Source: a virus. From it: a stretch of DNA of 28,107 nucleotides. Of this stretch, positions 13,874 through 23,459 are shown one piece after another. The DNA lies in the IMG/VR virus record IMGVR_UViG_3300047548_000533, positions 1 through 28,107 of that record, one strand, 5' to 3'. Positions within the stretch are counted from its first letter, which is position 1; every line of letters starts with the position of its first letter. Below the pieces are notes generated by a model. It made no database searches. It saw only the letters and a list, made by a program, of their open reading frames with translations, and was not told the DNA's origin. A program made the translations under genes and the position numbers.

Positions 13874-14089
13874 GTGCAGTATTTAAAAGTAAAAGATGCT
13901 GAAGAGTTTGTTCGTGATGCAGACTCTTCAGCTATCCTAAATACAGATAACGATTCTCTGCGTGCATACAAAGCTCGCAAAAAGAAAGAAGCTCATCTTG
14001 ATGCCATAGTAAAAGAACATGAGGAGCTAAAAAGAGATATAAATGAGATTAAAGAACTCCTAAGATCATTAGTAGGACATAATAAATGA
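13874..14089 (+). CDS. Small conserved coiled-coil protein of marine T4-like phages
   Basis: A 71-residue protein starting with GTG one base after the preceding stop; no in-frame ATG gives a comparable product. The N-terminal half (YLKVKDAEEFVRDADSSAIL followed by NTDNDSL) resembles the 'vRD..s.AilNtD' pattern of small proteins found beside structural genes in marine myophages. The C-terminal half (from about residue 30) is highly charged with heptad-like spacing (HLDAIVKEHEELKRDINEIK), predicting a coiled coil. It overlaps the fibre gene by four bases (ATGA), implying coupled translation. A role as a linker or assembly helper for the adjacent fibre is possible but not shown. Function unknown. 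Confidence 0.65.
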   Translation: MQYLKVKDAEEFVRDADSSAILNTDNDSLRAYKARKKKEAHLDAIVKEHEELKRDINEIKELLRSLVGHNK

Positions 14090-16491
14090 CTATAACTGTT
14101 ACCTCTGTCGCTAATACTCAATCATTTGGCGCATGGTTATCTACTACAAACAGACTAGTCGAGATTGTATCTCAAAACACTGTGACTGTCGATACTTCTA
14201 CCGGTGGTTCAATTTCTACTGGTAACGGTTATGTTAATGGTTACTTCGGTGCTAATTATTTGTATGTTGCAAATGGACTGAGTGGTGGAAACGTTTCTTC
14301 TAATGGTGTACTCAACATAGTCTCTAATGTAGCTTTTAAGTATAGCACTAGTAACTTAGTAACACTGACTGCCAATAGTACTGTTTCTGTTTTAATGATT
14401 GCAGTAACTAATGTAAATATTACAGCTAATAGTATCTCAATTACTGGTAATACATCATTTGCAAATGCTGTGACTTTTTCTGAAGCAGTCACATTTGCAA
14501 ATGCTGTAAATATGACTTCTACAAGCCCATCAGTATTTAGTTCAAATGTAACTGTAAATGGCACTGTAAGTGTTGGTAATTCAACGGTTAATACCACAAT
14601 AAATTCAACGGCGTTTGGTATATCTAATTCAACAGTATCATATTCAATATTAGCACCAACTGCAGCTCAATATGCTAATAATGATTACTATTTAAATGCT
14701 AATGGTCAGTGGAGTAGAGTTGTTACCGGATCAAATACATATATTCAATTTAATGATTCGGAAACTCTAGGCAGTTCATCAAGTTTAACATTTAATAAAA
14801 CATCGACCACACTCAGTGTAGGGACATTTACTGCTAATTCAACCGTTGTAAATTCAACTGCTTATAATATTGGTTCAAATTTTATAGCAAATTCTACCGG
14901 TATATATGCCGGCGTAGTTAATGGTTCAAGTATAACAGTTGGTACTTCAATAATAGCTAATACTACCAGATTAGCAATTGGTACTGCAGTTGGTCTACAA
15001 GCTAACAATGGTATAGGTACTTCTGGTCAAGTATTAACTTCAAATGGTACTACAGTGTATTGGAGTACACCATCTGCAGGTGTTGCAGGTTCTAATACAC
15101 AAATACAATTTAATGATGCTGGAGCTCTAGCAGGTGATACTGGTTTAACATTTAATAAAACAACAGATACATTATCTACTAATACAATTTTAGCCACTAG
15201 CACAATAAATGCTGCTAGTCATACCGTTGGTACTAACACAATTGCCAATTCAACTGGTGTATTTACAACTGGAACAGTTAACGGCGCAACAATTAGTGTT
15301 GGTACATCAGTAATTGCTAATACTACTAGATTAGTAATTGGTACTGCAGTTGGTCTACAAGCTAACGGTGGTATAGGTACTTCCGGTCAGGTATTAACGT
15401 CGAATGGCACTACAATATACTGGGGATCTGCGGGTGCAAGTGGTACTGTAACATCTGTAGCGACTGGTAATGGTCTTACAGGTGGACCAATTACAACTAC
15501 TGGTACGGTATCAATATTAGCAAATAGTGGTATAACTGCTAATACCACAGGGTTATTTGTTACTCAAGGTACTGGTTTGGTAGTAAATGCTACTGGTGTT
15601 CATGTAAATGCTACATACATTGGAACACTTGCAGCAAACTCTTCTACATACTTAGGCTCAGTTAATAATTTAGGTAATACTACAGGAATTTATACTACTG
15701 GCACTATTAATGCTGCTAGTCATACTGTTGGTACTTCAACTATTGCAAATTCCACTGGTGTATTTACAACTGGAACAGTTAACGGCGCAACAATTAGTGT
15801 TGGTACTTCAACAATTGCCAATTCAACTGGTGTATATACTGGTGTTGTAAACGGTTCAAGTTTAACAGTTAGTACTTCAACTATTGCAAATTCCACTGGT
15901 GTATTTACAACTGGCACCGTTAATGGTGCAACAATTAGTGTTGGTACATCAGTAATTGCTAATACTACTAGATTAGTAATTGGTACTGCAGTAGGTTTAC
16001 AGGCTAACGGTGGTATAGGTACTTCTGGTCAGGTATTAACTTCAAATGGTACTACAGTTTATTGGGCGGGAGCAGGCGTTGCCGTTACTGCAAATAATAC
16101 TGATTCACAAACGTTTTTCATTCCCATGTCGAATTCCACTACAGGAACATGGTCTAATGGTGTAGTATCTAACACTAAACTATATTTTGTACCATCCACG
16201 GGTACATTAAATGCTACAATCTTTAATTCACTATCTGATAGAAAACAAAAGATTAATATTGTCACAGCACCTGTTGGATTTATTGATGCAATTCGTGGTG
16301 TTGAGTATAATTGGAAAGATACTGGTAAGAAATCATCTGGTGTAATTGCTCAAGAAATAGAGGAATATCTACCTCATCTTGTTGAAACCAAAGATGGTTC
16401 AAAAAGTGTTAATTATTCTGGTTTGATAGCTTATTTGATTGAAGAGATTAAAGAATTAAAAGATAGAGTAAAGGCATTGGAGAATAAATAA
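14086..16491 (+). CDS. Tail fibre with C-terminal self-cleaving S74 chaperone domain
   Basis: An 801-residue fibre-like protein. The N-terminal 200 residues are beta-rich and Asn/Thr/Ser-rich. Residues from about 215 to 680 consist of recurring blocks: SNTQIQFNDAGALAGDTGLT, GTSVIANTTRLVIGTAVGLQ, GIGTSGQVLTSNGTTVYW, and GTVTSVATGNGLTGGPITTT. The last 85 residues form an intramolecular chaperone of the Peptidase S74 (endosialidase-type) family. In that family the domain folds the trimeric fibre and then cleaves itself off before a conserved Ser. Here SDRKQK places the presumed catalytic Ser at 717 and Lys at 722 (spacing 5, as in the family), followed by GVIAQEIEEYLP and the terminal helix YSGLIAYLIEEIKELKDRV. 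The predicted mature fibre is residues 1-716. Long identical DNA repeats lie inside the gene. The fibre call is strong; the receptor is unknown. Confidence 0.82.
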   Translation: MTITVTSVANTQSFGAWLSTTNRLVEIVSQNTVTVDTSTGGSISTGNGYVNGYFGANYLYVANGLSGGNVSSNGVLNIVSNVAFKYSTSNLVTLTANSTVSVLMIAVTNVNITANSISITGNTSFANAVTFSEAVTFANAVNMTSTSPSVFSSNVTVNGTVSVGNSTVNTTINSTAFGISNSTVSYSILAPTAAQYANNDYYLNANGQWSRVVTGSNTYIQFNDSETLGSSSSLTFNKTSTTLSVGTFTANSTVVNSTAYNIGSNFIANSTGIYAGVVNGSSITVGTSIIANTTRLAIGTAVGLQANNGIGTSGQVLTSNGTTVYWSTPSAGVAGSNTQIQFNDAGALAGDTGLTFNKTTDTLSTNTILATSTINAASHTVGTNTIANSTGVFTTGTVNGATISVGTSVIANTTRLVIGTAVGLQANGGIGTSGQVLTSNGTTIYWGSAGASGTVTSVATGNGLTGGPITTTGTVSILANSGITANTTGLFVTQGTGLVVNATGVHVNATYIGTLAANSSTYLGSVNNLGNTTGIYTTGTINAASHTVGTSTIANSTGVFTTGTVNGATISVGTSTIANSTGVYTGVVNGSSLTVSTSTIANSTGVFTTGTVNGATISVGTSVIANTTRLVIGTAVGLQANGGIGTSGQVLTSNGTTVYWAGAGVAVTANNTDSQTFFIPMSNSTTGTWSNGVVSNTKLYFVPSTGTLNATIFNSLSDRKQKINIVTAPVGFIDAIRGVEYNWKDTGKKSSGVIAQEIEEYLPHLVETKDGSKSVNYSGLIAYLIEEIKELKDRVKALENK
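15286..15350 (+). repeat. Direct repeat in fibre gene, copy 1 (65 bp)
   Basis: A 65-bp block identical by eye to 15928-15992 in the same gene, encoding the ATISVGTSVIANTTRLVIGT unit. A separate 43-bp identity links 15731-15773 with 15872-15914. Identity at synonymous positions indicates recent duplication or homogenisation rather than selection on protein alone. Confidence 0.85.
15928..15992 (+). repeat. Direct repeat in fibre gene, copy 2 (65 bp)
   Basis: Second copy of the block at 15286-15350, in the same reading frame and 642 bp downstream. The bases just outside the block differ in synonymous positions, so the identical tract has sharp ends. Confidence 0.85.
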
Positions 16492-17657
16492 TGCCTAATT
16501 TTAGTGGCGGTGAAGGTGAATTATCAGAATTATATCTAAGTGAAACCGATATATTAGAAAGATATGTTGGCAATCAGTTGTGGTTATGGGGTAGTAATAC
16601 TGTTGGACAACTTGGTGACAACTCAGTAACTCACCGTTCATCACCAGTACAGACCATTTCTGGTGAAACCAACTGGAAACAAATAAGTGTTGGTGTAGGT
16701 CATTCTGCGGCTATAAAAACAGATGGTACTTTATGGTCATGGGGTAATAATTATAGTATAACTGTTGGTGGTCAATTAGGTGATAATACTAGTATTCATC
16801 GTTCATCTCCAGTGCAGACAGTTGCTGGTGGAACTAATTGGAAACAAGTAAGTTGTGGTAGTTATTTTACAGCAGCAATTAAAACAGATGGTACTCTTTG
16901 GTTATGGGGTAGTAACACTAATGGTGTACTGGGTGATAATACAACAGTCTCCAAATCATCACCAGTACAAACAGTCTCAGGCGGCACAAACTGGAAACAA
17001 ATAAGTGGTTCTGCGGCTATAAAAACAGATGGTACTCTTTGGTTATGGGGTAAAAATACTGATGGACAACTTGGTGACAACTCAGTAACTCACCGTTCAT
17101 CGCCAGTACAAACAGTCTCTGCTGGTACTAATTGGAAACAAGTAAGTGTTAGTGGTAGTGGTAATTCTACAGCAGCAATTAAAACAGATGGTACTCTATG
17201 GTTATGGGGTCTTAATGGTAATGGGCAACTAGGTGACAATTCTATAACCAGTCGTTCATCTCCAGTACAGACAGTCTCGGGTGGCACTAATTGGAAACAA
17301 GTAAGTTGTTTTAATGAAACTACAGCAGCAATTAAAACAGATGGTACTCTATGGTTATGGGGTAAAAATACTGATGGACAACTTGGTACTAATGATATAG
17401 TTCATCGTTCATCACCAGTACAAACAGTCTCAGGAGGTACTAACTGGAAACAAGTAAGTGTTGGCGTAGGTCATTCTGCGGCTATAAAAACAGATGGTAC
17501 TTTATGGTCATGGGGTAGTAATGCAAATGGACCATTAGGTGATAATACTACTACTGCTAAATCATCACCAGTGCAGACAGTTGCTGGTGGAACTAATTGG
17601 AAACAAGTAAGTTGTGGTAGTTATTTTACAGCAGCAATAACTTATACAGAATCATAA
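16491..17657 (+). CDS. RCC1-repeat beta-propeller protein A
   Basis: A 388-residue protein. A 29-residue N-terminal segment (with LSELYLSETDILERYVG) leads into seven consecutive RCC1/ATS1-type repeats of about 51 residues from residue 30 to near the end. Each repeat has the pattern LW.WG.N..GQLGDN, SSPVQT, GGTNWKQ.S and AAIKTDGT. Seven repeats is the number that closes an RCC1 propeller. Repeat 2 has a small insertion (NYSITVGGQLGDN). Repeat 3 is four residues short (WKQISGSAAIKTDGT). The last repeat ends AAITYTES, diverging where the others continue. The gene starts by 1-nt overlap (TAATG) with the fibre gene. No signal peptide is evident. RCC1-like proteins serve as protein-binding platforms; in a tail-fibre locus an adhesin or receptor-binding head is the likeliest role, by inference. 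Confidence 0.8.
   Translation: MPNFSGGEGELSELYLSETDILERYVGNQLWLWGSNTVGQLGDNSVTHRSSPVQTISGETNWKQISVGVGHSAAIKTDGTLWSWGNNYSITVGGQLGDNTSIHRSSPVQTVAGGTNWKQVSCGSYFTAAIKTDGTLWLWGSNTNGVLGDNTTVSKSSPVQTVSGGTNWKQISGSAAIKTDGTLWLWGKNTDGQLGDNSVTHRSSPVQTVSAGTNWKQVSVSGSGNSTAAIKTDGTLWLWGLNGNGQLGDNSITSRSSPVQTVSGGTNWKQVSCFNETTAAIKTDGTLWLWGKNTDGQLGTNDIVHRSSPVQTVSGGTNWKQVSVGVGHSAAIKTDGTLWSWGSNANGPLGDNTTTAKSSPVQTVAGGTNWKQVSCGSYFTAAITYTES
16695..16746 (+). repeat. Direct repeat in propeller A (52 bp), matches 17466-17517
   Basis: A 52-bp tract in repeat 1 of propeller A is identical to 17466-17517 in repeat 6. Part of the same tract (around 17010-17035) recurs in repeat 3, where 12 bases are missing in frame just upstream (near 17005). 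Confidence 0.85.
16809..16879 (+). repeat. Direct repeat in propeller A (71 bp), copy 1
   Basis: A 71-bp tract spanning the second half of repeat 2 is identical to 17568-17638 in repeat 7. Identity covers third codon positions and ends abruptly on both sides. Confidence 0.85.
17568..17638 (+). repeat. Direct repeat in propeller A (71 bp), copy 2
   Basis: Second copy of the 71-bp tract at 16809-16879, in frame, 759 bp downstream. Immediately after the tract the frame leaves the RCC1 consensus and stops, as if the 3' end of the gene was formed by recombination at this repeat. Confidence 0.85.
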
Positions 17658-17666
17658 GAGGAAACT

Positions 17667-18302
17667 ATGTTTTTTGCACTAGTACATAATAATTTTGTAT
17701 CAATTGGACCAAGACTTTGGAATAAACTTCTTTTTGAAGAAGCACTTCAAGAGGAATGTGATATTACCTATACTTTGCCAACTAGAAATGACGAAGGAAC
17801 TCCTTTTATCATTGCACCTAATGTAATGATCTTACCAATAGTTTCTTTATCACAACCAGTATTTAATGCAAAGATACAAAGACTTGATGGTCCTTACTGG
17901 GTCTTTACAGATACAGAAGCACAAATGAGTTTTACAGTTGTTGATCTTCCGATTGAAGCTGTAAAAAATCAACTTAAAGTTGTTATAGCTAATAATAGAT
18001 ATACCAAAGAAGTTGGTGGTATAAAGATGACTATTCAGGGTATAGAAGTATCAATTGATACTGCCCGTGGTTCAAGAGAAATTTTCTTTGATGCTTATAA
18101 CAGCATGGAACCATCAGAAACTATTAATTGGAAATTTCCAGAATGTTGGTTGACTCTTACTAAAGATGAACTTGGTTCAATTGTAGCTGCTGGTAAACTT
18201 CATATTCAAACATGTTTTGATTGGGAAAGAGATAAAGATCAAGAGATAGATTCTGCTCAGACTCTCCAAGCATTAGATGCTATAGTTCTTAATTTTGAGT
18301 AA
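17667..18302 (+). CDS. DUF4376-like tail-associated protein
   Basis: A 211-residue protein. The first 85 residues (FFALVHNNFVSIGPRLWNKL and a later GPYWVFTDTEAQMSF) resemble short tail-fibre-associated N-termini. From about 95 to 205 it matches the DUF4376 pattern seen in many phage tail-region proteins: GIEVSIDTARGSREIFFDAY, INWKFPECWLTLTKDEL, GSIVAAGKLHIQTCFDWERD and IDSAQTLQALDAI. A strong ribosome site (AGAGGAA) lies five bases before the ATG. It sits between two propeller genes, so an assembly-helper or tip role for the propellers is plausible; nothing in the sequence proves it. The DUF4376 assignment is from memory of the family pattern. Confidence 0.65.
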   Translation: MFFALVHNNFVSIGPRLWNKLLFEEALQEECDITYTLPTRNDEGTPFIIAPNVMILPIVSLSQPVFNAKIQRLDGPYWVFTDTEAQMSFTVVDLPIEAVKNQLKVVIANNRYTKEVGGIKMTIQGIEVSIDTARGSREIFFDAYNSMEPSETINWKFPECWLTLTKDELGSIVAAGKLHIQTCFDWERDKDQEIDSAQTLQALDAIVLNFE

Positions 18303-18307
18303 TAATA

Positions 18308-19555
18308 ATGGCTAGTATCTATGATGCTAATACAAATTACACCGTGAATGGAACTGATCTTAGATATAATCCTGGAATGGTCACGCGTGAGTATTTAATA
18401 GATGTTTATCCATCATTAATAGATAATTTTAGATTTGCTGGTTTATGGACTTGGGGTGATAATAGTTTTGGACAATTAGGTATAAATAATATATTAAATT
18501 ATTCTTCTCCGGTTCAAACAATATCTGGTGGCACTAATTGGAAACAAGTTAGCGGTGGAAGTAGTACAACAGCTGCAATCAAGACTGATGGCACATTGTG
18601 GCTTTGGGGATTAAATAGTAATGGACAATTAGGCGATAATACAATTACGCATCGTTCTTCTCCGGTTCAAACAATATCTGGTGGCACTGATTGGAAACAA
18701 GTAAGTTGCGGTGGAACTTTTACAGCTGCAATTAAAACTACTGGCACTTTATGGTTATGGGGTGAAAACCTTTATGGTCAATTAGGCACAAATGATCGCA
18801 TTTATAAATCATCACCAGTTCAAACAGTCTCTGGTGGCACTAACTGGAAACAAGTAAGTTGTGGTGGTAGCCATGCTGCCGCTATTAAAAATGATGGTAC
18901 TTTATGGTTGTGGGGAAAAAATACACCAAGTGGATTTTCTGGCGGTCAACTTGGTGATAATACATTATTACACAGATCATCGCCCGTTCAAACAATTGCC
19001 GGTGGAACTAATTGGAAACAAGTAAGTTGTGGTAGTGAACATACGGCAGCCATTAAAACAGATGGCACTCTGTGGTTATGGGGTTCAAATGCAACTGGCG
19101 GTTTAGGTAATGATCTTAATAGTGATAGATCATCACCAATACAAACTGTTACCGGTGGTACCAATTGGAAACAAATAGAATGTGGACAAGAAAATACTGC
19201 CGCTATTAAGACTGATGGTACTTTGTGGTTGTGGGGATTTAATCAAAATGGTGCATTGGGTGACAATACACGGACTCATCGTTCCTCACCAGTACAAACA
19301 GTCTCTGGTGGTACTAACTGGAAACAAGTTAGTCTTGGTAGTTTTTTTACAGGTGCTATTAAAAATGATGGTACCTTGTGGACTTGGGGTGTAAATACAT
19401 CCGGTCAACTTGGCGATAATACTGTAGTTAGCAAATCATCTCCGATTCAAACAATCTCCACTGGTACAAATTGGAAACAAGTAATCTGTGCATCCAGTAT
19501 AACAATATGTATTAGAGATGATTCATCTGATCCATTTAGAGCAGAACCAATATGA
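18308..19555 (+). CDS. RCC1-repeat beta-propeller protein B
   Basis: A 415-residue paralogue of propeller A. A 45-residue N-terminal segment contains NYTVNGTDLRYNPGMVTREY, related to the start of propeller C (NYRMNGTDFDDLF), and may be the virion-docking part. Seven RCC1-type repeats run from residue 46, each with LW.WG, GQLG, SSPVQT, GGTNWKQV and AAIK.DGT elements. Repeat 4 has a five-residue insertion (KNTPSGFSGGQLGDN). Repeat 5 is divergent (GGLGNDLNSDRSSPIQT). The last repeat ends WKQVICASSITICIRDDSSD, breaking the consensus as in the other two propellers. The stop overlaps the next start by four bases (ATGA). Host-surface binding is inferred from location. Confidence 0.8.
   Translation: MASIYDANTNYTVNGTDLRYNPGMVTREYLIDVYPSLIDNFRFAGLWTWGDNSFGQLGINNILNYSSPVQTISGGTNWKQVSGGSSTTAAIKTDGTLWLWGLNSNGQLGDNTITHRSSPVQTISGGTDWKQVSCGGTFTAAIKTTGTLWLWGENLYGQLGTNDRIYKSSPVQTVSGGTNWKQVSCGGSHAAAIKNDGTLWLWGKNTPSGFSGGQLGDNTLLHRSSPVQTIAGGTNWKQVSCGSEHTAAIKTDGTLWLWGSNATGGLGNDLNSDRSSPIQTVTGGTNWKQIECGQENTAAIKTDGTLWLWGFNQNGALGDNTRTHRSSPVQTVSGGTNWKQVSLGSFFTGAIKNDGTLWTWGVNTSGQLGDNTVVSKSSPIQTISTGTNWKQVICASSITICIRDDSSDPFRAEPI
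19257..19299 (+). repeat. 43-bp tract identical between propellers B and C, copy in B
   Basis: Identical by eye to 20791-20833 in propeller C, across codons for LGDNTRTHRSSPVQT. Flanking bases differ, so this looks like a short conversion tract between paralogues about 1.5 kb apart. Confidence 0.85.
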
Positions 19556-20055
19556 TAAGTCCACTTATTAAATTAATAACAATCGATGGATTCTTTTCTG
19601 AAGAACAAGCAACTAATTTATATAATATAACCAAAAATCTCAGTTTTACAGAAAAAGAATTTGGTTTAGAAATAGATCAATTTAATATGGTGCCAGAAAA
19701 TGCTAATGAATTATTCTCTGGAATCTTTAATACCAATATTATTGTAGATGAAGAACGTTCTGGTATATTTCGTATTCCACGGCATTTTATTCATTTTGAA
19801 AGCTTTGATAGCATCAATGAATGGATATTTGTATGTGCACTCGAAAAATCATTTTTAACTATATACGAGCATCTTGATACTGGTTCAAAGACAGCACTAG
19901 ATGAATATAAGTTAGGTTATATGGATCTATTACAATGGGACTATCAAGCTCAACATCAATTATCCCCAGGACAAGGCGTTTTATTTCGCCCATGGCTGTT
20001 TCATTCGCTTGATTGTGGGTTAGTTCAGATCTTTAGATTAAGAGAGACCGATTAA
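19552..20055 (+). CDS. Cupin-fold / 2OG-Fe(II) oxygenase-like protein
   Basis: A 167-residue protein between propellers B and C, coupled to both by short overlaps (ATGA and TAATG). Residues 75-165 read like a double-stranded beta-helix enzyme. IPRHFIHFESFDSINEW has a possible HxE iron pair (His81, Glu83) on a JmjC-like spacing. An alternative HxD pair is His107/Asp109 in IYEHLD. Both precede SPGQGVLFRPWLFHSLD, which supplies a typical distal His (His151) with Arg162 eleven residues on, where such enzymes bind 2-oxoglutarate. Small 2OG oxygenases of this kind are frequent in marine myophage genomes. If active it could hydroxylate a virion or host protein. Which His/acid pair binds iron, and whether it is catalytic, cannot be told from sequence alone. 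An inactive cupin-like structural protein is the alternative. Confidence 0.5.
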   Translation: MISPLIKLITIDGFFSEEQATNLYNITKNLSFTEKEFGLEIDQFNMVPENANELFSGIFNTNIIVDEERSGIFRIPRHFIHFESFDSINEWIFVCALEKSFLTIYEHLDTGSKTALDEYKLGYMDLLQWDYQAQHQLSPGQGVLFRPWLFHSLDCGLVQIFRLRETD

Positions 20056-21221
20056 TGACTACTAATTATCGTATGAATGGTACGGACTTTGATGATCTAT
20101 TTGTTAGAAAAGATATATTCACAGAAGGTGGTTTATGGTTATGGGGATTTGCATCTTTTGATAATACCAATTTAGATAAAGTTTCTCCTGTACAAATTTT
20201 TGGTGGTGGTACAAATTGGAAATTAATTGCATCTTCTAAAGATACATTTTCAGATAGTTTTAGCGAAAGCCATGCTGGAATTAAAACTGATGGTACTTTA
20301 TGGACTTGGGGTAGGAATGGTGGTGGTCAATTGGGTGATAATACCACCACACATCGTTCTTCACCAGCTCAAACAATATCCTCTGGCACAAATTGGAAAA
20401 CCGTTTCTGTTGGTAGTCAATATACATTAGCAATTAAAACTGATGGTAATTTATGGCTTTGGGGTAAAAATGATTTTGGTCAACTTGGTACTAATGATAT
20501 AGTTCATCGTTCTTCTCCAGTACAAACTGTTGCAGGTGGCATCAATTGGAAACAAATAAGCGGTGGTTGGAGACACACAGCAGGAATTAAAACTGATGGT
20601 ACTTTATGGTTATGGGGTTATAATTTATTGGGTCAACTTGGCGATAATACAATTGTTTCTAAATCTTCACCTGTTCAAACAATTGCGGGTGGTACTACTT
20701 GGAAACAGGTAAGTTGTGGCTCTTATCACACAGCCGCTATTAAAACTGATGGTACTTTATGGACTTGGGGTGGTAATGGTAATGGTGTACTGGGTGACAA
20801 TACACGGACTCATCGTTCCTCACCAGTACAAACTGTTGCAGGTGGTACAAATTGGAAACAAGTAAGTTGTGGTGATTATCATATATCATCAATTAAAACT
20901 GATGGTACTTTATGGTCATGGGGTTATAATAATTATGGTGTATTAGGTGATAATACACAAATTAATAAATCATCGCCTGTTCAAACTGTTGCAGGTGGTA
21001 CAAATTGGAAACAAGTAGATGCACATTATCATAATGCTGCTGTTAAAACTGACGGCACTCTATGGTTATGGGGTTATAATTTATACGGTCAGATTGGTGA
21101 TAACACTAATTTAAATAGCAAATCATCGCCAGTTCAAACTGCACATGTTGGAACAAATTGGAAAATGGTTTCAGCAGGCGGATATGCATCTATGGGGATT
21201 AGAGGTGATTATTGGGCATAA
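20055..21221 (+). CDS. RCC1-repeat beta-propeller protein C
   Basis: A 388-residue third paralogue. A 26-residue N-terminal segment (TTNYRMNGTDFDDLFVRKDI) precedes seven RCC1-type repeats starting at residue 27. Repeat 1 is the most divergent of all 21 repeats in the window (LWLWGFASFDNTNLDKVSPV, with an insertion near KDTFSDSFSESH). Repeats 2-6 are close to consensus (GQLGDNT, SSPVQTVAGGTNWKQVSCG). Repeat 6 lacks one residue (KQVDAHYHNAAVKTDGT). Repeat 7 closes with WKMVSAGGYASMGIRGDYW. The gene begins by 1-nt overlap with the oxygenase-like gene. Like propellers A and B it has no signal peptide or membrane segment. A role as an alternative or additional adhesin head is inferred. Confidence 0.8.
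   Translation: MTTNYRMNGTDFDDLFVRKDIFTEGGLWLWGFASFDNTNLDKVSPVQIFGGGTNWKLIASSKDTFSDSFSESHAGIKTDGTLWTWGRNGGGQLGDNTTTHRSSPAQTISSGTNWKTVSVGSQYTLAIKTDGNLWLWGKNDFGQLGTNDIVHRSSPVQTVAGGINWKQISGGWRHTAGIKTDGTLWLWGYNLLGQLGDNTIVSKSSPVQTIAGGTTWKQVSCGSYHTAAIKTDGTLWTWGGNGNGVLGDNTRTHRSSPVQTVAGGTNWKQVSCGDYHISSIKTDGTLWSWGYNNYGVLGDNTQINKSSPVQTVAGGTNWKQVDAHYHNAAVKTDGTLWLWGYNLYGQIGDNTNLNSKSSPVQTAHVGTNWKMVSAGGYASMGIRGDYWA
20791..20833 (+). repeat. 43-bp tract identical between propellers B and C, copy in C
   Basis: Second copy of the tract at 19257-19299, same frame, encoding the same part of an RCC1 repeat. Neighbouring repeats in this gene use different synonymous codons for the same residues. Confidence 0.85.
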
Positions 21222-21254: not shown

Positions 21255-21800
21255 ATGTACAAACTAAACGTCGGCTCAGGCTATAAAAGAATCAATGGAT
21301 TCATCAATATTGATTCTGATCCTAACTGCAAACCAGATCACGTATTAGACATAGAGACAGATAGTCTCCCATTTCAAGATAATTCGGTTGATGAAGTTAT
21401 CTGTCATCATATTTTAGAACATCTAGGGTTTGGTTTTTTTCATTTTATAAAAGAACTCTACAGAATTTGTGCTGATCAAGCAATTATAAATATTAGAGTG
21501 CCACACCCACGACATGATATATTTTTGATAGATCCGACACACAAACGCCCGATCTATCCTGATACATTAGCTATGTTTTCAAAAAAAAGAAATGGAATAG
21601 ACATAGAAGCAGGTGGGTGTGAATCTACCCTAGGTCTTATGTATGATGTTGATTTTGAAGTCGTTGATGTAGATTACGTGTTGAATCCTTTCTATCATAA
21701 TTTGTTTCAGACTATTTCCAACGAACAATGTGATCTAATAGTTCAGTCACAAAACAACGTCATTCAAGAAATTCTTATCAAGCTAATGGTAGTAAAATGA
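21255..21800 (+). CDS. Class I SAM-dependent methyltransferase
   Basis: A 181-residue protein with a short Rossmann-type methyltransferase fold. Motif I is LNVGSGY (residues 4-10, SAM glycine loop). An acidic residue ends strand 2 in GFINID (Asp20). LDIETDSLPFQDNSVDEV leads to ICHHILEHLG (motif IV and following helix, about 49-58). A further strand is seen in AIINIRVPHP. This resembles the Methyltransf_11 type often found in glycan and surface-polymer gene clusters. The stop overlaps the downstream glycosyltransferase start by four bases, which suggests joint expression. The substrate is unknown: sugar, protein or lipid are all possible. A run of eight A (21581-21588) lies in the gene, but the frame continues intact after it. 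A ribosome site GGAG precedes the ATG inside a possible hairpin. Confidence 0.78.
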   Translation: MYKLNVGSGYKRINGFINIDSDPNCKPDHVLDIETDSLPFQDNSVDEVICHHILEHLGFGFFHFIKELYRICADQAIINIRVPHPRHDIFLIDPTHKRPIYPDTLAMFSKKRNGIDIEAGGCESTLGLMYDVDFEVVDVDYVLNPFYHNLFQTISNEQCDLIVQSQNNVIQEILIKLMVVK

Positions 21801-23107
21801 ATCCGCTAGCGACCGCTGAGTTCTTAATAAGTCATAAATTGAATGATGACGCTAAAGTAGTCTTGGATATCATGAAGAAGTACTGCAAGACAGTCGCGCA
21901 GATGGACGCAATCGGTAAGCTGTACGCGGATATCCGTGAGTTCAATGATTGTTTAGAACTAGCTATTAGAATTCATGACACCGTGTCACATCCTAAAGAA
22001 AAGTGGGATGCTAGAGTCAATATCATTCGTGCATGTCTCAATACAAACAAACCACTTGAAGCACTGAAATATATAAACATCAATGAAAAAATTGATCCAA
22101 ACGATCATCCAAATCGTATGGATAAAGCAATGGCTTGTTTTCTTCTGAATAGAAAAACAGAAGGTGAAGCATTGCTTAGATCAATACTTACCGAACCTAG
22201 AACCGATGATATTGATGCTCGAGTAAGATTTAATCTTGGTACATATGAATTAGCAAATGGTGACTTCAAACCTGGCTTGAGAAAAGTGTTACTAGATGGA
22301 AGAAAATTAAATATCTGGCACAAGTATTCATTACCAGTAGAACAACAATGGGAAGGAATTCCACAACCGGGTAAGACCATACTGATGTGTGCCGAGGGTG
22401 GTATGGGTGATGAAATTATATCAGTTCGATTTCAGAAACAATTCCGTGATGTTGGTATGAATCCTATTTGGTATACTGATAGAAAAGACTTGGCATCTGT
22501 ATTCAGACGCTGTGGTTTTGATGTCATAACATCACTTTCTGACTATAAGCCTGAATGGCTTTGGTGTTACTCTATGCCGTCACCTTCATATCTGGAACTA
22601 GATGAAGATCAACTTTGGTATGGACCATATCTAAAACCAATTAAAAAAGCAAAAAAATTAGATGGATCTTTAAAAATTGGTCTAAAATGTATGGGTAATC
22701 CCAAATATGATCAGGATCTACACAGAACCATACCAGTACATCAGGTATTAGATTGTTTTCATCCAGAAGCTACTATCTATTCATTTCACGTTGATGAAGA
22801 TATACAAAGTGATAGAGTCATTTCATTGCGTAATGAAATAAACTCATGGGATGATACACTTGATTTTCTGGATCAAATGGATCTAGTAGTATCAAGTTGT
22901 ACTAGTTTAGCACATGCTGCTTCTGCTATGGGTAAGAAAACAATAGTTATGGTGCCCATATTAAATTACTATACTTGGGCTAGACCTGGTCGACATTCTA
23001 AATGGTATTCACAAAATACAACAATATTGAGACAGACAGAATATGATAACTGGAATTCTCCAGTTGAAGAATTGAGGTTATGTATTGATGAATTATACCA
23101 TTCATAA
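21797..23107 (+). CDS. TPR-containing GT-B glycosyltransferase (GT9/GT41-like)
   Basis: A 436-residue protein. Residues 1 to about 175 are all-helical with TPR-like pairs (AKVVLDIMKKYCKTVAQMDA, then PLEALKYININEKIDPND). From about 190 there is a GT-B-like half: ILMCAEGGMGDEIISVRFQK (195-214; glycine-rich GxGD loop of GT9-type transferases), IGLKCMGNPKYDQDLHRTIP (294-313), and DLVVSSCTSLAHAASAMGKK (362-381), the nucleotide-sugar binding region of the C-terminal half. TPR plus GT-B architecture is also that of protein O-/N-glycosyltransferases of the GT41 kind. Adjacent methyltransferase and GT-A genes support a sugar-modification pathway. Target and donor are not determinable; modification of virion surface proteins is inference. 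Confidence 0.72.
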   Translation: MNPLATAEFLISHKLNDDAKVVLDIMKKYCKTVAQMDAIGKLYADIREFNDCLELAIRIHDTVSHPKEKWDARVNIIRACLNTNKPLEALKYININEKIDPNDHPNRMDKAMACFLLNRKTEGEALLRSILTEPRTDDIDARVRFNLGTYELANGDFKPGLRKVLLDGRKLNIWHKYSLPVEQQWEGIPQPGKTILMCAEGGMGDEIISVRFQKQFRDVGMNPIWYTDRKDLASVFRRCGFDVITSLSDYKPEWLWCYSMPSPSYLELDEDQLWYGPYLKPIKKAKKLDGSLKIGLKCMGNPKYDQDLHRTIPVHQVLDCFHPEATIYSFHVDEDIQSDRVISLRNEINSWDDTLDFLDQMDLVVSSCTSLAHAASAMGKKTIVMVPILNYYTWARPGRHSKWYSQNTTILRQTEYDNWNSPVEELRLCIDELYHS

Positions 23108-23459
23108 AAGAAACATAAACATAACTTCTATAGTCAGTACCGAACCAGAGTCATCTGTTCCATGTGGTTCTTGTAATGCTTGCTGCAAGTTATTGTCACC
23201 GCATTTGACACCAGATGAAGTGTCATCTGGTAAATACCCTATTTCTTTAATTCAACCTACACCTGAAATGATTATGCATGATCCAACCATTGGACCTGTA
23301 GTCACCATGTTTAAAAATAAAGATGGTGGATGCTCTATGTTTATAGATAATAAATGTTCTATCTATGAAGATAGACCAAGAGCATGTCGTATATTTGATT
23401 GCAGAAAAGGTCATCATCCAAAGACTAATGAAATAGCTCATGAAAAGTTTGGAATTTAA
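23088..23459 (+). CDS. YkgJ-type CxxCxxCC metal-binding protein
   Basis: A 123-residue protein using the ATG at 23088; a TTG one codon earlier is less likely. It overlaps the glycosyltransferase by 20 bases. The cluster motif CGSCNACC gives Cys26, Cys29, Cys32 and Cys33. Four more cysteines (82, 90, 100, 105) lie in GGCSMFIDNKCSIYEDRPRA and RIFDC, matching the full eight-cysteine pattern of the YkgJ/UPF0153 zinc- or iron-chelating family. That family includes FliB, which is linked to lysine N-methylation of flagellin. Its placement within a methyltransferase/glycosyltransferase group suggests a part in protein modification, but the family's chemistry is poorly known, and the phage protein could instead be an iron-sulphur or metal chaperone. 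Confidence 0.78.
   Translation: MNYTIHKRNINITSIVSTEPESSVPCGSCNACCKLLSPHLTPDEVSSGKYPISLIQPTPEMIMHDPTIGPVVTMFKNKDGGCSMFIDNKCSIYEDRPRACRIFDCRKGHHPKTNEIAHEKFGI

Follow-up and report, generated by a model that had tools for sequence, protein, structure and literature searches.

A conserved phage gene module of RCC1 propellers, a DUF4376 protein and a predicted 2-oxoglutarate dioxygenase

Gene order at the locus and its conservation

The window analysed here is the whole 28,107-base stretch of IMG/VR virus record IMGVR_UViG_3300047548_000533, in which baseplate and fibre genes precede an S74 tail fibre gene, followed by three RCC1 propeller genes (R1, R2, and R3) that are separated by single genes for a DUF4376 protein (D) and an oxygenase-like protein (X), all on the plus strand:

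14086-16491, plus strand: S74 fibre with a C-terminal S74 intramolecular chaperone domain (Pfam PF13884, E 2.9e-8; PHROG tail fibre matches)
16491-17657, plus strand: R1, RCC1 propeller with 7 Pfam repeats and an R1-type N-terminal segment (first ~30 residues; Pfam and N-terminus typing)
17667-18302, plus strand: D, DUF4376 protein, probable fibre/propeller assembly chaperone (PF14301, E 3e-10; phrog_10508, tail fibre, E 1e-16; AlphaFold2 model, pLDDT 96)
18308-19555, plus strand: R2, RCC1 propeller with 7 Pfam repeats and an R2-type N-terminal segment (first ~45 residues; Pfam and N-terminus typing)
19552-20055, plus strand: X, 167-residue protein with a predicted 2-oxoglutarate (2OG)-Fe(II) dioxygenase fold and the residues HxE (81-83) ... 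H151 ... R162 (AlphaFold2 model, pLDDT 83; PDB matches with Z up to 12.3; residue conservation)
20055-21221, plus strand: R3, RCC1 propeller with 6 Pfam repeats and an R3-type N-terminal segment (first ~30 residues; Pfam and N-terminus typing)

From the fibre gene to R3, the successive junctions are a 1-base overlap, gaps of 9 and 5 bases, and overlaps of 4 and 1 bases, confirming the alternation of propellers and partners with gaps or overlaps of at most ten bases given in a preliminary description of this locus (the maximum here is 9 bases). In R1-R3, 20 RCC1 repeats exceed the Pfam cut-off (7, 7, and 6; PF25390 and PF00415, the latter with E 8e-55 or better). D, which adjoins R1 on the downstream side, scores 41 bits against DUF4376 (PF14301; curated cut-off, 25), and X has no Pfam or PHROG family match at E 0.1.

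Related loci were retrieved from viral_contigs with separate seeds, namely, the R2 protein (74 loci from the best 80 of 169 matches), an alignment of D (at least 80 loci), an alignment of X (62 loci), and an alignment of R2 N-termini (41 loci); single-sequence scans with D and with X had yielded one locus each, and the rarity they suggested is not borne out by the profiles. Open reading frames (ORFs) were labelled by profiles built from the window and locus proteins, and genes were clustered at 90% identity. The D and X profiles were made from module members, which biases the counts given here towards module-linked relatives.

RCC1 genes flank D on both sides in 70 of the 84 non-redundant D genes; 79 adjoin an RCC1 gene on at least one side, and 2 of the other 5 come without RCC1 anywhere in the fetched stretch. 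An RCC1 gene immediately precedes D in 72 of the 84 clusters. The order propeller-D-propeller was found in 67 of 78 representative D loci with at least six ORFs, compared to a mean of 2.9 and a maximum of 9 in 2000 within-locus shuffles, and propeller-X-propeller in 21 of 44 X loci (mean 1.2 and maximum 6, again in 2000 shuffles). X lies immediately between two propellers in 21 of its 46 non-redundant clusters, and the complete order of the window is present in 17 of the 46. When the seeds are taken one by one, D is flanked by propellers on both sides in 29/31 clusters from the R2 seed and 40/46 from the D seed, and X in 18/38 X clusters from the X-profile seed; the separate seeds agree. The Pfam DUF4376 model matches 34 of 49 searched records at E 0.01 (27 above the cut-off), and some of the 15 records without such a match carry D by the custom profile. 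The R1-D-R2 slot is almost invariant although D diverges to ~25% identity, and D is present with the R1-type propeller in 63/64 groups, with the R2-type in 67/72, and with the R3-type in 58/69 (counts affected by contig ends). A crude S74 motif was detected in 31 of 59 genes upstream of R1. A control with a gp6-like anchor gave 0 of 33 viral contigs with RCC1 or DUF4376 and, with many short fragments among them, was uninformative. The block of propellers, D, and X is a conserved module, beyond chance, and the neighbourhood survey envisaged in the preliminary description shows strong co-occurrence with RCC1, far above the shuffled orders.

A cultivated example of the module is found in the Synechococcus phage S-SRM01 (Kyanoviridae), in which gp334-gp344 likewise comprise a fibre, an RCC1 protein, a DUF4376-type protein, a second RCC1 protein, a PF13759 2OG oxygenase, and, further on, a third RCC1 protein. 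S-SRM01 differs in having six genes between R2 and R3 and an oxygenase of PF13759 rather than of the X family. Neither "RCC1" nor "chromosome condensation" appears in the main text of the S-SRM01 paper (PMC8557907).

The interval between R2 and R3 spans 0 to 7 genes in the 64 groups with both propellers typed. R2 and R3 are adjacent in 12 groups; 27 intervals hold one gene, which is X in 26 of them; and among the other 25, 22 contain most of one ordered series that consists of a TPR-type protein, an oxygenase-type protein, other genes that lack a Pfam name, and a cysteine-rich protein. An oxygenase of either kind occurs in 42 of the 64 intervals, X in 27 and a second family, typed as PF13759 by its S-SRM01 member alone (the only one scanned), in 15.

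Propeller N-termini and heads

Outside the blades, R1, R2, and R3 carry differing short N-termini. We compared 39 cassettes with three single propellers, cutting each protein between the N-terminus and the first blade by a simple pattern and labelling positions from gene order relative to D; given that the labels do not derive from the N-termini, the comparison is not circular. For the N-termini, the best match in another genome shared the position of the query in 114 of 117 cases, with the same count at D identity below 60% or below 45% and 112 below 35%. For the propeller domains, the corresponding number was 56 of 117, with ~39 expected by chance, and 47, 48, and 44 at the three D identity limits. 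Scoring by percent identity instead gave 104 of 117 for the N-termini and 54 of 117 for the propellers.

Propellers within one genome share 63% identity on average (genome means, 39-82%), compared to 52-54% between genomes at the same position and 53% at different positions. Binned by D identity, same-position and different-position values stay within 0.2 points of each other up to 60%; above that, same-position identity is slightly higher, at 69.0 vs 67.5% (21 genome pairs) and 70.0 vs 66.3% (4 genome pairs). Two features are newly seen in these arrays: position-specific N-termini on R1-R3, and heads that are most alike within a genome. This is most simply read as recombination between the heads of a genome, with the N-termini kept apart. 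In the window, pairs of propeller genes have identical DNA stretches of at most 32-43 bases in common, so that no very recent conversion is seen there. Searches for R-type N-termini on other, non-RCC1 proteins of the fetched loci gave nothing better than E 0.5, bar one truncated propeller, and nothing better than E 4 was found in named phages beyond S-SRM01.

The DUF4376 protein and the oxygenase-like protein

Published DUF4376 proteins act as fibre chaperones and, by homology, D is most likely an assembly chaperone or cap, in agreement with the folding helper proposed in the preliminary description. In the accessible passages of three papers, a DUF4376 gene follows a fibre gene in Campylobacter and Alteromonas phages (PMC7289586, PMC10579305, PMC10877375), and the Campylobacter phage protein F341_034 is considered a putative chaperone (PMC10877375). 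The fibre gp26 of Alteromonas phage V22 is described there as binding cells only if co-expressed with gp27, which separates from the fibre in size exclusion and is absent from the final complex (PMC7289586); in phage A5, gp9 is described as not required and as staying attached to the fibre in part, and it has been proposed to act as a transient cap (PMC10579305). V22 gp26-gp27 and A5 gp8-gp9 resemble the window in that the tail module has, immediately downstream of a receptor-binding gene (a putative one, R1, in the window), a gene for a ~200-residue protein with a C-terminal DUF4376 domain; their client, however, is a tail fibre, whereas D in the window has RCC1 propellers on both sides and is followed by a third propeller, as well as, often, an oxygenase. 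By the same homology, the clients of D would most likely be the flanking R1 and R2. There is usually one D per array, for about three propellers. A role as chaperone of R1 alone was considered: it is favoured by the position of D and by two cases in which D has no following R2 (the L154 group, where D comes after several propellers, and L144) and is contradicted by the mirror-tree comparison described below. The best PDB matches of the D model are prefoldin subunits at Z ~7, which falls below the trust level for helical models and carries no weight here; Foldseek with the D model gave nothing at E 0.001.

Among 22 named phage genomes, DUF4376 was found in S-SRM01 and in the Erwinia phage Kaldavass, with 0 of 11 among T4-like genomes without RCC1. 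In nine further named RCC1 records and BUCT-ZZ01 (Marinobacter PS6, one of the nine, was covered by tblastn and annotation only), it was found in Kaldavass alone, away from the RCC1 genes: the Kaldavass gene lies ~220 kb along the record from the RCC1 array, beside a tail fibre, and is annotated as "virion structural protein". Some module-bearing contigs (L087 and L088) carry a second DUF4376 gene without flanking propellers, in L088 near a glycine-rich gene and two oxygenase-like genes (by eye).

The best PDB matches of the X model are 2OG-Fe(II) oxygenases, with PiuC (9qn4) at Z 12.3 and rmsd 2.7 over 135 residues, and prolyl hydroxylases at Z up to 11.7 (P. putida prolyl-4-hydroxylase, 4j25). 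The 50 matches listed span Z 10.4-12.3 and are 2OG-oxygenase-type proteins by title; those with uninformative titles, such as vaccinia C16, belong to this type as well. X shares with 9qn4 and 4j25 the predicted fold, the HxE...H residues, and an R/K near the end, and differs in sequence (12-13% identity) as well as in the lack of a family match. Among 42 relatives of X, H81 is kept in 41, E or D83 in 41, H151 in 40, and R or K162 in 35; the HxD/E...H motif and distal R/K are, we assume, those of the 2OG superfamily and were located by sequence position only. One relative (in L025) matches phrog_81 at E 0.0016. For 45 of the 46 X clusters, the representative locus contains an RCC1 gene, the X profile itself coming from such loci. 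In one contig (L303, 7920-9464), an uninterrupted 514-residue ORF joins an X domain (residues 27-188, E 2e-65) to RCC1 repeats (196-438, E 4e-45); no other labelled ORF has this structure, the contig ends with a further RCC1 gene, and the phage is otherwise different. Unless it stems from an assembly error, this fusion is direct evidence for a joint action of X and propellers, and X may then enter the particle. Our best guess is that X is a 2OG-Fe(II) hydroxylase, consistent with the hydroxylating enzyme of the preliminary description in predicted fold, metal motif, and fusion to a propeller. A search with X across the 22 named phage genomes gave no match but included no positive control.

According to the preliminary description, its idea would fail if co-occurrence were lacking in other genomes and the partners were equally common beside fibres other than RCC1. 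For oxygenases in general, this is partly so: PF13759 proteins occur in 7 of 8 cyanophages without RCC1, counted irrespective of fibre adjacency, with up to 17 matches in one genome, and, among RCC1 records, in S-SRM01 and the marine virus AG-345-E08 only. It does not hold for the subfamily of D.

Host recognition and competing explanations

On balance, we lean towards reading the block as a host-recognition module of a T4-like phage, a three-headed adhesin in which three propellers would be borne at different fibre or baseplate sites, each attached through its own conserved N-terminal segment, with D as an assembly helper and X as a dioxygenase. The location after baseplate genes and an S74 fibre, the retention of D between two propellers and its co-presence with them, the contrast between N-termini and heads, the chaperone homologues of D, and the RCC1 proteins in the virions of W70 and GAP32 (see below) all point this way. 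Recombination would keep the heads alike within a genome, with little memory of position; D would help the propellers, likely R1 and R2, to assemble or stay capped and then leave, as V22 gp27 does; and X, with its predicted fold, conserved metal ligands, and fusion in L303, would hydroxylate a product of the same operon, most simply the propellers. The arrangement, which occurs in many uncultured phages, is more suggestive of a modular device for grabbing the host than of one for packing DNA. A more specific version that we offer tentatively is a three-socket adhesin, with N-terminal plugs that would fix the propellers at distinct sites, heads that would be swapped and homogenised by recombination between the propeller genes of the phage itself and modified by the dioxygenase, and D as a trans-acting chaperone in its nearly invariant slot between the first two sockets, the whole serving as a receptor-diversifying array. 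If true, this split between N-termini that stay fixed and heads that are homogenised would clearly illustrate how a host-contact surface can vary while assembly remains intact.

Several observations weigh against this interpretation. In a mirror-tree comparison, distances of D track those of the N-termini with partial r of 0.31 for R2, 0.17 for R3, and 0.09 for R1. The order R1-R2-X-R3 occurs without D in one group (L023), R2 and R3 occur alone without D in L237, and in a 5.9-kb contig without RCC1 (L147), D adjoins a fibre-like gene (by eye, with no Pfam match). Published DUF4376 clients, in the passages cited above, are fibres and not propellers. In 17 of the 46 X clusters, the nearest propeller is 2-10 genes away, and the fusion in L303 could be an assembly error. 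In AG-345-E08, which has a fibre-like gene, a propeller, another gene, a second propeller, five genes including oxygenases, and a third propeller, the protein in the slot of D has no detectable similarity to D. Finally, the 18 kb around the RCC1 trio of E. coli phage W70 (two stretches, 41 and 49 ORFs) contain no D or X profile match at E 0.01.

The available parts of the respective papers report three tandem RCC1 genes in W70, with their products detected in the virion by mass spectrometry (PMC11370258), and likewise an RCC1-like protein in the GAP32 virion (PMC5259590). The presence of propellers in the particle therefore does not depend on D or X being encoded nearby. The hypothesis of the preliminary description, that each propeller travels with or needs a partner, has to be rejected in its strict form of one partner per propeller, as one D usually serves about three propellers, R2 and R3 can be adjacent, and X can be distant; the module stands.

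Among the alternatives, it is possible, although we would not expect it, that D remains in the virion as a structural adaptor connecting R1 and R2 with the fibre or baseplate. D keeps its place between two propellers whose N-terminal ends differ, usually in a single copy, and its distances track the R2 N-terminus most closely; the annotation of the Kaldavass homologue beside a tail fibre and the partial retention of A5 gp9 on its fibre are also compatible with an adaptor, in contrast to the departure of V22 gp27 from its fibre and the existence of arrays without D, including that of W70.

Passive mosaicism, in which the repeated propeller genes are recombination sites and the gene order reflects shared descent and hitchhiking rather than need, appears doubtful. 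The 0 to 7 genes between R2 and R3, the occurrence of X away from propellers, and the abundance of oxygenases in RCC1-less cyanophages speak for it, but the R1-D-R2 slot is almost invariant despite the divergence of D, the content of the interval is non-random (X in nearly all one-gene intervals), and X is fused to a propeller in L303.

Two narrower proposals are unlikely. The first holds that D is a chaperone of the upstream fibre and that R1 merely intervenes, as the published position of DUF4376 genes after fibre genes and the D of L147 directly following a fibre-like gene would suggest; however, the window fibre already has an S74 chaperone domain, as do, by the crude motif, about half of the genes upstream of R1, and a propeller gene directly precedes D in most clusters. 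The second, which we rate as improbable to the same degree, treats X as a domain carried into the particle with the propeller, or as an inactive structural domain, rather than as a free propeller enzyme: in L303, X precedes the RCC1 repeats where other propellers have a short N-terminal segment, but this is one contig only, and the iron ligands are kept in 40-41 of the 42 relatives of X.

A role of the RCC1 proteins in condensing DNA inside the head, as suggested for phAPEC6 and W70 in the accessible text of the corresponding papers (PMC7247149, PMC11370258), is very unlikely, because the RCC1 genes of the window come after those for baseplate and fibre and enclose a gene homologous to fibre chaperones, and the nameable families of the R2-R3 interval (TPR-type and PF13759-type) are not DNA-related. 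W70 and the Rak2-like jumbo phages (GAP32, 121Q, phAPEC6, and Kaldavass) resemble the window in encoding RCC1-like proteins, several per genome in most, and differ in that these are described in print, as far as the available excerpts go, as DNA-condensing. With probably tail-borne heads, separate N-terminal ends, and a homologue of fibre chaperones, the module offers a concrete alternative to that published role, and because the cultivated S-SRM01 carries it, virion location, chaperone dependence, and modification are directly testable. No paper that combines RCC1 with DUF4376, or treats RCC1 as a phage receptor-binding protein, was found in the open-licence literature, and the module is not described in the titles, abstract openings, and available passages of open-licence work on tail-related RCC1 proteins of phages and cyanophages; the RcGTA paper PMC10218006 was matched by gene names only and was set aside.

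Downstream genes and variant arrays

R3 is followed, after a 33-base gap, by further genes:

21255-23459, plus strand: downstream cargo, encoding methyltransferase-like, TPR-type, and CxxCxxCC proteins (Pfam; phmmer against R2-R3 interval genes)

Compared by phmmer with genes of the R2-R3 intervals, the TPR-type protein matches 24 members (E 1.5e-70), the CxxCxxCC protein 12 (E 1e-4), and the methyltransferase-like protein 1 (E 7e-58). The relatives of this cargo thus lie between R2 and R3 elsewhere, as if the block had crossed R3. A presumed link of the CxxCxxCC protein to FliB (lysine methylation) was not supported by a literature search.

Some arrays depart from the common order. In L203 (3743-9355), an R1-type propeller with a long C-terminal extension is followed by three genes, then D, and then a fibre; one of the three genes falls just below the PF13640 cut-off, and the fibre is S74-like by eye. 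In a marine single-cell virus that keeps the propeller grammar (L329, MH319737.1), a 230-residue, unrelated-looking protein occupies the slot of D (15123-15815, reverse strand), and, by eye, a different N-terminal motif is common to all three propellers. In Kaldavass (L316, 695-7933), five RCC1 genes are annotated, and a gene for a ~170-residue protein, with relatives in many jumbo phages, lies between the fourth and the fifth.

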